Origin: Alkalihalobacillus sp. LMS39
GTDB taxonomy: Bacteria > Bacillota > Bacilli > Bacillales > Bacillaceae_F
Length of the DNA: 64,000 nt
Assembly: GCF_022812285.1 (NCBI RefSeq)
Contig: NZ_CP093300.1
Coordinates: 3,224,001-3,288,000, forward strand
Direction: 5' to 3'
Shown here in pieces: positions 15,507-48,828 of this stretch. The notes beneath the pieces are model-generated. The model did not search any database. It saw only the letters and a list, made by a program, of their open reading frames with translations, and was not told the DNA's origin. The position numbers and the translations under genes were made by a program. Each line of letters begins with the position of its first letter. The first letter of the stretch is position 1.

Positions 15507-15835
15507 CTCACCTTCTTACACCTCTTCATGAACCATTTGTGATATCCATTTTCTAGGGTATGCCCTATTTCTAATGAGCGTTCTTATGGAATCAGTATTT
15601 TACAATGATTACTACTTCTTTTTTGTTGGAAACTGTAGTATACTAGTCTAGCGATGAGCTAATTGCATAAGACGAAGTTGACACGCCTGTAGGCAATGCA
15701 CAATGTGGAGTGCTGTTTCTTCGCCGCAATATACGTAGAAAAAGACGTCCAATTGGACGTCTTTTTTGTTTTTGCCTTTACCTATCATAAGAAATTGAAG
15801 TAGATACGCGGAGAAATGAGTGGAATGATTCAAAA
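15507..15835. other. Gap with a possible small RNA
   Basis: This 329-nt stretch has no supported protein gene. It holds a TATACT box on the plus strand (15639-15644, weak -35), roughly 100 nt of unique sequence, and then a strong intrinsic terminator with a T6 run on the plus strand. No plus-strand gene precedes the terminator, so a small plus-strand RNA of about 110-130 nt is possible. Confidence 0.35.
15746..15776. terminator. Bidirectional intrinsic terminator
   Basis: The perfect stem AAAGACGTCC AA TTGGACGTCTTT is followed by T runs on both strands. It ends the cueP-like transcript on the minus strand and possibly an RNA on the plus strand. Confidence 0.8.
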
Positions 15836-17418: not shown

Positions 17419-17597
17419 CGGACATTTATTCCGCTATATTAAAGAATATTATCAAAACTAATATCGTTACGGACATCTGTTCCGCTATTTCTTCATTTCA
17501 GCTCAAATTTGATTCGTTTTTTAACTAATAACGGAATACATGTCCGTTATGGTTGAGAAAACACCCTTTTTTTATATAATAGCGGAAAATATGTCCG
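17419..17597. repeat. Four-unit intergenic element, copy A (F-51-F-62-R-51-R)
   Basis: Units matching CGGACATNNRTTCCG or its reverse complement lie at 17419-17433 (F), 17470-17484 (F), 17532-17546 (R) and 17583-17597 (R). The starts are 51, 62 and 51 bp apart, the same as copies B (23482) and C (39406). Forward units are followed by YTA. The element fills the space between two convergent 3' ends. The spacers are not conserved in sequence. Confidence 0.9.
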
Positions 17598-17606
17598 ATA
17601 AGAAAT

Positions 17607-17634
17607 AAACCGAGGAGAGCCATCTCCTCGGTTT
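17607..17634. terminator. Terminator of the rhamnogalacturonan lyase gene
   Basis: The stem AAACCGAGGAG / CTCCTCGGTTT lies a few bases after the lyase stop, with a T-rich tail on the minus strand. Confidence 0.8.
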
Positions 17635-17640
17635 GTTGTA

Positions 17641-20600
17641 TTATGACTTTCCTTTCCCTTTTCCCTTTCCAGGATTATCAATGGGGCCTTTACCTGGGTT
17701 GTCGATCGGACCTTTACCCGGATTATTTATTGGACCTTTACCTGGATTATCTTTATGACCTTTTCCTGGATGTTCGCGTTCTTCTTGTTTCAGTTCTAAA
17801 CGGTCAATCGCCTCTTGAAGTGCTGCTAATTCTACCGCTAGCATTTCTTCGGTTTGAATGATATCAAGGGCGGCTTCTGCTACTACAATGGCTTCTTGTA
17901 AGGCTTCAAATGACTCATCTGTATAAATGCCATCTTCATTTGAAATCGCTTTGGCTGTTTCGATTAAATCAATAAGCTCAGTTAAATCAAGTTTTTCTTC
18001 AGGAACATAATAAAGCTCAAGCCCATTGATTCTGCCATTTCCGCCAATTTGAATCGTTAATTGTCCATCTGTAACTGTAACGGTTTCCGTTATCGTTGCA
18101 AATTCTCCAGCAGCAGAAGAAACTCGTCCTACATCTACACCTTCAATGATAAAACTAGAGTTATTCGATGCAATTTGGTCTCCGGCTATAATATGGACTT
18201 TATACGTTCCATTTCGAACATCGACCATAAATTCATATTGACTATCAATAATGAAATCGCGACGAACATCATCAGGTTCACCCCGGTCCCGCTCTGCTAC
18301 TGTTTTATTTAGCCCATACCCTCGCGCTTCTGAATATAGCATTTGATTCGACACTTGCTTATAACCGTAAGCAACAGGGCTTGTTTGTGAACCAAAGTCA
18401 AACTTCACATTAAAATCATCGACGGCTCGGACTTCAAGTGCATTCACACGGGCCCATGAACCAGTAAAGCCGATATTTAATTGGCCATCTGATACCGTTA
18501 CTGTTGCTTCATATTCGGCAAATTCACCTGCTTGTGTTCGCGTTCCCCCTTGTTTTGTACCTTCTTCAAGCGTAAATGATGTATCATTGCTATCATTTTG
18601 TGCACCGGTAATAATTTTCACATCATATTCTCCATTTGGAAGGTCAAGTTTGAATTCACTATCGTTTGCTAACACAAAATCTCGCCTTAAATCATCTGGA
18701 CTTCCTTGGTCTCTCGTTCCATCTGCATGTTGTGCAAACCCATATCCTGTTTCTTTCGTATATATCGTTGCATCTGTCACTTTTTCATACCCATTAGCCA
18801 CTGGGCTTTGTGCTGTTCCAAAATCAAAACGATATCCTGGTCCTAAATCGACAATTTCTTCTAATCCATCAATCACTCGTTGTAATGCATCAATTGCCGC
18901 AAACAATTGAAAGTCAAAACGGATGGTTTCTAGAGCTGCTTCCGCTTCTGTTATCGCTTCTTGTAACAATGCAAAAGACTGCTCGGTATAAAGGCCTGTC
19001 TCATTTGAAATCGCTTTGGCTGTTGCAATTAACTCTTCTAGCGGAGAAATATCAATCTCTCGTTCTTCCTCAACATAATCAAGTTCACCACTTAAGTTCG
19101 GAACTGGTACATACTTCCAATCTATATCAGTAGCAAAGTAAAAGCTCGGATAAGACGGTTGGTTGTACCCAACATTTTGCCATGCGATACCTGTGCGATA
19201 TTGAATGTCATGCATTAATGTATAAAGCTTTCTATCGGTTACTTCAGTATTTAAGTAAATACGAATCGCTGAACTGTCAGCTGTTCGGACTAGCAACTCT
19301 TCACGCCAATCACCAAATACATCAGCAACAAGGGCAGGGTTTCCTTTTGTTCCATTATTCGTTCTTGTTCCTGTAGCTGTTAACACTCTTCCAGTTTCCC
19401 AGTCATCGATCGTTGGTGTGTTATTCCCAGAACCATTCACAATTTGTGTCGACATATCTGCGGCCCATTTAATATTCATATTTGTGCCTGGTCGATTTGT
19501 GCCAAGGACTGTTCCATCGGCTGTGCGCAAATCAACAGCCCATGTTTCTAAGCCACGTTGTCCTCGGACAACATCACCGACCATCCCTCGTCCCGTATCT
19601 GTCCCAGTGTAGCCACCGTAAATGATTTCACCCGTTGCCCCTTCACGAAGAGCAAAGCCATACGGAGCCCAAGGGCCTGCTTCAAATACCGAGTAAATTT
19701 CAAGTCCAGGACGGTCAGGATTAATATCAGCGACGTGTAATGCATCCCCATGACCAAGAACAACGACTTCCCCTGGTGCAGCACTTCCTTCTGGTAATGG
19801 TTCCATTGAGCTATATAACAATGTTCCATCATGGTCAAGAGTGGCACCACCATGAATGATTTCATGTTTACCATCCCCGTCAACGTCTGCAACACTTATC
19901 GCATGATTTCCTTGAGATGCTAAACGTCCAAGCTCTCCATTTGTCCCTTTTCCTCCATGTGGATAACTGTTAAATGGATTGTCCATTGGAACATGTCCAC
20001 TATCAGCAACCCATAAACGCTCTAGGTTTGTTCCGTTCCAGTTATAAGAAACAAATACAGCTCTTGCATAATAGCCACGATTCACGAAAAATGACGGTGT
20101 CTCTCCGTTAAAATACGCGACCCCCATATTTAAACGATCAACACGATTCCCTGGTTCAATTCTTGGATAAGCGTAATCGCCCCACATTAAACCATCATCA
20201 CCACGTTCAGGTTCATAATGAATCGTCTCTAACTCATTTCCTGTTTCCCCGTGGAAAACGGTTAAATATTCTGGACCTTCAACGATAAAGCCTTCAAAGG
20301 CACGAAGATTATTTCTTGCACTTCGGCTAGGGGCATACTCGTCCATAAAATAATCAACTAAATGTTCCGCATCTTCACGTGACAACGGATACTCATATTG
20401 CACGTCAATGCCAAAGCTTTCTTCTAATGTTTGTGGCCAATTGCCCGCTTGTACTTCTTCATGTTCATGCCAATTCATAAACATATTGACAACATGCTCA
20501 TAATAATCTTCCGCACTCATTCGATAGTCATCTTCATTACTATACCCTTGCTCTATGTCTTCTTCTGGTAGAGTAATATATTGTTCTGAAATAACTTCTC

Positions 20601-23481: not shown

Positions 23482-23660
23482 CGGACATCTATTCCGTTAT
23501 TTCATACCAAACAAGCTTTTTTTAATAGCTAAAGGACATATGTTCCGCTAATGGACTTAAATAGCCGGAAAACAATTCTGATTTTCTTATTTAACGGAAC
23601 CAATGTCCGATAGCCTTCTAAAAATGTTAGTTTTGATGAAAATAGCGGAACAAATGTCCG
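23482..23660. repeat. Four-unit intergenic element, copy B (F-51-F-62-R-51-R)
   Basis: Units lie at 23482-23496 (F), 23533-23547 (F, first base A), 23595-23609 (R) and 23646-23660 (R), with start spacings of 51, 62 and 51. Like copy A it lies between convergent genes, the DUF2621 protein and trpS. Confidence 0.9.
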
Positions 23661-24704: not shown

Positions 24705-24945
24705 TACAACACAAAAAGGGCTTCTTATCCTTATAGAAAAGGACGAGAAACCCGTGGTGCCACCTTCATTCGCTTTTTAAAAGCGCGCTTTAGACGTACG
24801 GAACAAGAAACGTTCGATACGCTGTCTTTTTTAACGGTAAGACACCCGCCACGCCTACTCTTTGTTCAGCCTGGAAGCTCAGAAATCCATTCAACTATTG
24901 TCCCACACTGATTCACACCATCCATCAGCTCTCTTTAGTGTTTCA
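24705..24945 (-). promoter_or_regulatory. T-box riboswitch with Trp specifier
   Basis: The leader senses uncharged tRNA-Trp. Reading on the minus strand, AGAGAGC (stem I start, about 24930) and GATGGTGTGAA-like loop sequence are followed by the specifier TGG at 24889-24887. The invariant T-box AAGGTGGCACCACGGG lies at 24766-24751. A terminator (GGGTTTCTCGTCC..AAGGATAAGAAGCCC plus TTTTT) ends near 24712. All elements needed for antitermination are present, so the leader looks functional even though the gene is broken. Confidence 0.85.
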
Positions 24946-25000
24946 ATAATCTACTCTTTTTCGTCATTGCTTACTTAAAATTTTTTTTACAAGTATACCT

Positions 25001-33728: not shown

Positions 33729-33787
33729 CAGACATGTATTCCGCTATCCTTTAAAAAAACATGAACTAATAACGGAACAGATGTCCG
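33729..33787. repeat. Shortened two-unit version of the intergenic element (copy D)
   Basis: One forward unit (33729-33743, second base A) and one reverse unit (33773-33787) are 44 bp apart, compared with 62 in the full copies. The outer units are missing. It lies directly after the tkt gene. Confidence 0.75.
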
Positions 33788-39405: not shown

Positions 39406-39584
39406 CGGACATACGTTCCGTTATTTTCATGAATTTAGTGATATTTACGATTCTATCGGACATATGTTCCGCTATTCCGTCGATTTCAGCTCCATTTCTA
39501 TCAACAAACGTTACTTAACGGAACTGATGTCCGAACCGCTATGAAAACCTCGACAATTTGCAGTAATAACGGAACCTATGTCCG
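39406..39584. repeat. Four-unit intergenic element, copy C (F-51-F-62-R-51-R)
   Basis: Units lie at 39406-39420 (F), 39457-39471 (F), 39519-39533 (R) and 39570-39584 (R), with starts 51, 62 and 51 bp apart, exactly as in copies A and B. It lies downstream of glnA, with the third repeat family about 60 bp beyond its right end. Confidence 0.9.
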
Positions 39585-39643
39585 AACCAACTTTTTTCCA
39601 AAGGCTTTGAATAGAACGATAAAAAAAACACGGATCGTTTTTT

Positions 39644-39713
39644 CGCGAAGTGCGGAGCCTTCGCTCTTCTTGAAATAGCTTTCATAGCTTCACTGCTACA
39701 CCAAAATTTTTAT
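39644..39713 (+). repeat. Dispersed repeat, copy 2
   Basis: CGCGAAGTGCGGAGCCTTCG through GCTACACCAAAATTTTTAT matches copies near 9751-9888 and 48706-48776, all on the plus strand. It is preceded by a small hairpin AACGAT/ATCGTT with a T6 run. The other copies also follow a terminator-like hairpin. Confidence 0.75.
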
Positions 39714-39733
39714 GCTTTCTTATCTATTAAAAA

Positions 39734-48593: not shown

Positions 48594-48828
48594 CGGACAT
48601 TTGTTCCGCTAGTTTAGGAAAATAGACTTATTTCGTCGATATTATCGTTCTATAACGGAACAGATGTCCGAATGACATAAGAAAAACGCGGGAGCGTCTT
48701 TTCTTTCAAGCGAAGTGCGGAGCCTTTGCTCTTCTTGAAATAACCCTCAAAGCTTCATTGCTATACCAAATTTTTCTTATTTTTTGAAAAAAAACAGTGT
48801 TTGTTATACATAGCGGAAATTATGTCCA
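48594..48828. repeat. Four-unit intergenic element, copy E, missing one unit and interrupted
   Basis: The forward unit 48594-48608 and reverse unit 48656-48670 keep the 62-bp central spacing. A further reverse unit with one end mismatch lies at 48814-48828, 158 bp after the previous one. That is 107 bp more than the standard 51, and the dispersed repeat at 48678-48776 accounts for the excess. The outer forward unit is not recognisable. Confidence 0.75.
48678..48776 (+). repeat. Dispersed repeat, copy 3 (uninterrupted)
   Basis: It opens with a mini-hairpin AAAAACGC GGGA GCGTCTTTT, then the 20-nt core TTTCAAGCGAAGTGCGGAGC, and ends ATTGCTATACCAAATTTTT. It serves as the reference for copies 1 and 2. 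It sits inside the interrupted four-unit element. Confidence 0.75.

Follow-up and report, generated by a model that had tools for sequence, protein, structure and literature searches.

The new analysis indicates that a 179-bp element of Alkalihalobacillus sp. LMS39 is a real, constrained piece of DNA in which distances and helical phase are measured. Well over a hundred copies, most of them between genes, are spread over the single 4.85-Mb contig of this genome, some of them in the window, the whole stretch of 64,000 nt of NZ_CP093300.1 that was analyzed. The best explanation, to which we assign a probability of roughly one half, is a dispersed, mostly intergenic module of double-stranded DNA that would be read at four places by a putative bending or wrapping protein assembly. 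This reading rests on the fixed distances between the units, an A/T register that runs over ~180 bp, the slow change of units and A/T tracts, the discrete copying of the element and its dialects in scattered Bacillales. Specifically, a twofold-symmetric assembly would read the four units, ~31 and ~82 bp from the centre, and would bend or wrap the DNA between them with the A/T-rich minor grooves turned inwards. Less certainly, the role of the element near gene 3' ends may be BIME-like, topological or architectural, and it may have spread as a non-autonomous repeat that favours nearby sites.

In the window, the occurrence of the 18-nt unit is beyond chance, with 23 matches at up to three mismatches compared to a mean of 2.16, and at most 6, in 100 shuffles. 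A sequence-only reading of this DNA had described four units in the order forward, forward, reverse, reverse at three loci (copies A, B and C; Table 1), spaced by 51, 62 and 51 bp. This arrangement is borne out on the starts of the 15-nt core, the same units giving 51/59/51 when 18-mer starts are counted. The three variable bases, proposed to follow the consensus NNR, are less strict at the R, as unit 4 of copy A reads ATT. Two decayed copies accompany the complete ones. At the site of the first (33729-33787), the sister species, Alkalihalobacterium bogoriense (earlier Alkalihalobacillus bogoriensis; genome G001), carries a fuller, degenerate four-unit copy. The second appears to be split by an insertion of another repeat, whose length of ~107 bp follows from the expected 51-bp spacing. 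This other short repeat (GAAGTGCGGAGCCTTCGCTCTTCTTGAAATAG-like) is also present beside copy C, at ~39625-39715.

Table 1 Copies of the 179-bp element and their units in the window
Feature	Coordinates	Description
Copy A, full element	17419-17597	four units; orthologue intact in sister species
Copy A, units	17419-17436 (+), 17470-17487 (+), 17529-17546 (-), 17580-17597 (-)	
Copy A, fillers	17437-17469, 17488-17528, 17547-17579	
Copy B, full element	23482-23660	four units; orthologous copy in sister species
Copy B, units	23482-23499 (+), 23533-23550 (+, one mismatch), 23592-23609 (-), 23643-23660 (-)	
Copy C, full element	39406-39584	four units; orthologous copy in sister species
Copy C, units	39406-39423 (+), 39457-39474 (+), 39516-39533 (-), 39567-39584 (-)	
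Decayed copy	33729-33787	one forward and one reverse unit, 41 bp apart
Decayed copy	48594-48828	inner units at 48594 (+) and 48653 (-); the outer reverse unit is shifted away to 48811 (-)

The geometry extends to the whole genome. With at most one mismatch, the 15-mer core is found 490 times forward and 489 times reverse, compared to 1 and 6 times for the reversed control. When a search pattern prescribes nothing but the GGACA and TGTCC cores, at gaps of 45-47, 64-67 and 46, it yields 167 matches on the forward and 182 on the reverse strand (control, 0); because the element approximates its own reverse complement, most sites should be found twice, once per strand, so that these numbers are not additive. 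Rather than being randomly spaced, 59 of 87 distinct elements, collected with spacing windows of 45-57, 55-69 and 45-57, show 51/62/51, while 13 show 51/63/51 and the other 15 lie within ~2 bp. The distance conservation proposed from three loci thus holds genome-wide as well as in other genera, and the proximity of 51 and 62 bp to whole helical turns is supported. The window and 400 kb of further stretches contain 34 four-unit elements, which does not translate into a density, since many of these stretches were picked for units already listed there. Under a looser arm pattern (25-33 bases between units), spacings of 49-51 bp and arms of 68-70 nt (63-71 allowed) were read by eye among the matches listed, and the best-scoring elements (at most 150 matches over both strands) are scattered round the chromosome.

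Wide search windows applied to 1.619 Mb of contiguous DNA from this genome and its sister return 127 four-site sets (GGACA, GGACA, TGTCC, TGTCC) and none in the reversed sequence. The inner distance is 70-72 in 65 of them, as in the 179-bp element, and most of the remaining sets (30 or 82) represent a different tandem repeat of 52-bp period, which was kept apart in this count. This separate repeat, GGACA-N25-TGTCC, is found at L080:5876-6274, at G000 ~3531806-3532100 and at more sites in both genomes, and its junction TGTCCTTCAT..ATGAAGGACA is able to form a hairpin. Adjoining tandem arrays of 52 bp (5.9 copies, 17542-17846) and 115 bp (8.3 copies, 17847-18800) occur at L231 in G002; the 52-bp unit there contains CGGAC..GTCCGTATT and has a two-copy relative with other filler at L235:8719-8815.

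The DNA between the units had been regarded as unalignable and unconserved. The first description is accurate for copies A, B and C, whose fillers are 27-61% identical in register (both orientations), and does not apply to the family, in which paralogue pairs among the matches listed reach 73-94% identity over the element. The second needs correction, since a 10.2-bp A/T rhythm constrains the filler and the tracts of this rhythm diverge more slowly than the rest of it. Across 62 arms of this genome, an A-rich stretch occupies positions 25-29 and a T-rich stretch positions 36-40, and A/T content oscillates with a period of 10.2 bp over the whole element, fillers included. When units and flanks are masked, the best period of the fillers alone is 10.15 bp (bootstrap 10.15-10.20), with a periodicity power of 121 compared to 4.1 in 98 flank stretches, and none of 2000 permutations matches the strength of the rhythm. 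Likewise, 25 non-redundant elements from other genomes give a filler-only period of 10.20, whose strength none of 1000 permutations reaches. Neighbouring A/T peaks within a filler are spaced by 10-11 bp, with the units absorbing the difference, so no handedness of a wrap is concluded.

The comparison with the sister species, whose syntenic blocks of more than 500 bp are ~85-97% identical to those of LMS39, reveals which parts of the element are maintained. Of 49 elements in 1.02 Mb, 23 have both flanks in the sister DNA compared; 19 of these are intact there, 2 broken, 1 interrupted and 1 absent. Conversely, a place in LMS39 could be assigned to 20 of 35 sister elements; 16 are present here, 1 is absent and 1 decayed, while the remaining 2 were flagged only for early-stopping flank alignments and are present by the forward comparison. 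Substitutions were counted in 21 of 22 aligned orthologue pairs (one partial pair was left out, and the remaining placeable element is the one absent from the sister). Cores (25/1008, 2.5%), YTA (7/252) and A/T tracts (17/336, 5.1%) change slowly compared to other filler (115/1050, 11.0%), with p values of 3e-15 for cores and 9e-4 for tracts; the counts are 9/126 for the outer three bases, 105/866 for the middle and 384/5445 for the flanks. The variable NNN at core positions 8-10 is fast (44/252), faster even than the filler. To judge from these rates, the units and the A/T phasing look selected. Because units served to select the elements, the core rate of the LMS39 lineage is biased downwards, by our estimate to half its value at most, which falls short of the fourfold difference observed. 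Fillers have fewer indels per substitution (7/212) than flanks (25/343), not significantly so (p 0.09), in a count over 19 of the 23 elements, without the one absent from the sister, the interrupted one and the two that are broken there. Whole-unit conversion was considered as a source of the NNN changes and rejected: NNN outpaces filler, yet its changes cluster within a unit only mildly, like those of filler triplets.

Paralogue alignments mostly begin and end at the element edges (commonest classes starting at 57-62 and ending at 239-245, for an element at 61-239), so that the copied module is the element plus ~4 bp and the copies are related by descent. Common descent explains part of the constant spacing. 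Such discrete copying could also be expected of a selfish, non-autonomous repeat of MITE- or REP-like type without a host role, in which the units would be recognition sites of a mobilizing enzyme and conservation would reflect the copying of functional copies. Its patchy presence among genomes fits this idea, as do tandem arrays, both in this genome (one of two copies and one of four, with a 234-bp period) and elsewhere (G127, G232). Furthermore, in three regions the fillers of copies that lie within 8 kb of each other show greater similarity than the fillers of distant copies (p 0.0075, 0.016 and 0.028), and flanking 3-mers are equal in 17 of 83 cases versus 8.8 expected (p 0.0012), while the two interspecies insertion differences are not clean. 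However, 19 of 23 placeable elements have kept their place in the sister, the units and tracts of fixed copies change slowly, no long target duplication is seen at the elements, no autonomous copy, whose arms would enclose a gene, was seen in 1.62 Mb and one further locus, and none of the Y1, histone-fold and Mu/TnsB-type families tracks the element. We consider a purely selfish repeat unlikely on this balance.

A centromere role, suggested by a 41-kb G127 contig with an array, was rejected, as the array's 20 kb holds ordinary-looking chromosomal genes by ORF reading. Additionally, a ~700-bp palindromic repeat with ends TTATTC..GAATAA encloses a four-unit element at L137:1462-2142 and has relatives in G257, G080 and G138 (one genus); as a DNA single strand, its fold lies far below those of shuffled sequences (z -11).

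A protein that binds the unit had been expected, and none was found among the three families tested and the neighbouring genes. REP elements are associated with a Y1 (RAYT) transposase gene that is flanked by the repeats. Such a partner is not supported here: PF01797 is present whether or not a genome bears elements (15 of 16 genomes) and is missing from the element-bearing G270, an element lies close to only one of 30 loci around Y1 genes (L200 of G232, a fragment), and the longer Y1 gene of LMS39 (L202) has none. A histone-fold partner (PF00808) was found in 0 of 28 genomes, with positive controls in 3 archaea, and a Mu/TnsB-type transposase (PF09299) in 5 of 15 element-bearing and 2 of 13 other genomes, LMS39 itself having none. 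No neighbouring gene family recurs convincingly. In four genomes, elements have a two-component gene pair in their vicinity, and these pairs are homologous (L032, L134, L155 and L249, in G033, G257, G270 and Texcoconibacillus).

With a simple ORF caller, 45 of 49 elements fall outside called ORFs of at least 90 aa. Among these 45, 24 lie in tandem, 18 in convergent and 3 in divergent gaps, compared to 338, 105 and 119 of all 562 gaps; convergent gaps are enriched (p 0.0016) and divergent ones depleted (p 0.019). The position relative to gene 3' ends, which the earlier reading had singled out for mapping, is skewed towards convergent gaps, a context that promoter avoidance alone would also give.

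The rhythm and the location raise a second alternative, namely that the element is a strong DNA gyrase site of BIME-2 type, at which gyrase itself would wrap phased DNA and no special protein would be needed. The element has phased A/T and G/C over a length near that of a gyrase footprint and lies between genes near their ends, and gyrase sites of E. coli, in the parts of the source available, are G/C-periodic and over-represented in BIME-2 (PMC6379681). Like the gyrase motif as partly described, it is long, degenerate, G/C-phased at about one helical turn and symmetrical about its centre (PMC6379681, PMC12393610). The E. coli motif, however, spans 130 bp, in which a 36-bp centre separates two regions of 47 bp with a period of 10.75 bp (PMC6379681), whereas the element keeps a rhythm of 10.15-10.20 bp over ~180 bp, centre included, with no separate 36-bp centre. 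It also adds four conserved sequence units, and gyrase would presumably need neither four near-invariant 15-bp units nor dialects, which makes this explanation improbable.

Finally, an RNA folded in the 3' untranslated region, with unit 1 pairing with 4 and unit 2 with 3, is very unlikely: the units are mostly reverse complements in the own dialect, elements lie near gene 3' ends and the outer units pair weakly in excess (variable bases 0.515 vs 0.432, sd 0.033; position 15, 0.659 vs 0.493, sd 0.074), which could stem from the relatedness of copies, but spacers and full hairpin pair no better than shuffles and presumed partner units of other dialects differ in their middles (G138 and G270 pairs, among the matches listed). 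Specifically, spacers show no self-pairing beyond composition in 110 non-redundant arms, spacer 1 pairs with spacer 3 at 0.417 in 44 elements and at 0.417 in shuffles, and the full-length hairpin of 36 sequences reaches 64.4% pairing vs 64.3%, with 219 of 500 shuffles as high. A gathering-level Rfam scan of the window detects no family at the elements, its matches being a T-box leader (24736-24976, -) and the BsrF small RNA (15651-15763, +) elsewhere. The covariation check proposed earlier hence equals shuffles outside the outer units, in line with the original preference for protein on DNA over folded RNA.

In counts that include LMS39 itself, the exact 18-mer is present in 14 of 150 genomes and the exact arm in 10 of 299, whereas looser geometry detects 26 of 397 Bacillales genomes, one of them doubtful (G085, whose sequence looks different and may not belong), and 1 of 398 in a phylum sample (LMS39 only). 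A looser arm is found in 34 of 299 genomes, 24 with at least 4 matches and 10 with 1-3, by a scan whose control pattern matched 2 genomes. A four-unit scan of a named genome collection yields 31 stretches, from Salibacterium aidingense, Texcoconibacillus texcoconensis, Rossellomorea marisflavi, Aquibacillus koreensis and A. bogoriensis. In all Bacillales dialects GGACA stays the same, as does YTATT nine bases further on; the two together are also the search pattern used, which detected the family in genomes missed by the exact 18-mer. The middles vary between genomes and between arms within one element. The symmetry of the unit (CGGA..TCCG) is a property of the own dialect, and among the matches listed the middles of other dialects are non-complementary. 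The same-genus genome G002 lacks the exact 18-mer but holds 15 + 22 arms in another dialect, while three genomes of the same family (G003-G005) score 0 for exact 18-mer, exact arm, looser geometry and looser arm; since all dialects searched can be absent even from close relatives, there is no general host need. Distant blastn with copy A against plasmid and phage collections gives no match, and IMG/VR contains no exact two-unit arm and 80 stretches with one exact unit each, which are taken as chance.

These data are compatible, tentatively, with a DNA-reading system across families of the Bacillales, in which a putative assembly with lineage-specific dialects would recognize the four units, with GGACA and YTATT constant and the middle variable, at measured distances, wrap ~180 bp of phased DNA and thereby make a chromosome-organizing network out of dispersed intergenic sites, well over a hundred in number. 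A testable mechanism is rare for dispersed intergenic repeats of bacteria; here, distances, phase, tracts and dialects define the tests. Should a wrapping protein be found, it would be an architectural protein of defined site specificity, its mapped sites in a single genome numbering well over a hundred, and the dialects would reveal how protein and sites change jointly.

Literature searches by topic and sequence returned no description of the 179-bp element, the strings matching only unrelated papers among the matches listed, which agrees with the initial impression that no known family has this geometry. Among dispersed repeats of Bacillales, bcr1 (167 bp), Bhal-1 and Bant-1 are, in the part of the source available, stem-loop families in whose description a four-site geometry is not mentioned, and they are set apart on that description (PMC2267715). 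MITEs share short length, discrete ends, non-coding sequence, many copies and inverted arms with the element, which differs from them in showing no long target duplication and no parent transposase in the searches made, and in positions largely common to two species. Closest in habit are REP, BIME and REPIN sequences of E. coli and pseudomonads, which, as partly described, are likewise high-copy, intergenic and patchy, with inverted units and tandem arrays near gene ends, and which are DNA bound by proteins (PMC2817692, PMC3733652; for BIME-2 and gyrase, PMC6379681). A REP unit, in the excerpts available, is a conserved palindromic hairpin with a GTAG or CGTC tag (PMC3733652). The 179-bp element is thus BIME-like in habit, and in the tests made it came out neither as a REP member nor as a gyrase motif: its unit forms no self-complementary hairpin across dialects, Y1 transposase genes do not track it, and, in contrast to REP, BIME and REPIN sequences, it sets four units at 51/62/51 on a 10.2-bp rhythm.
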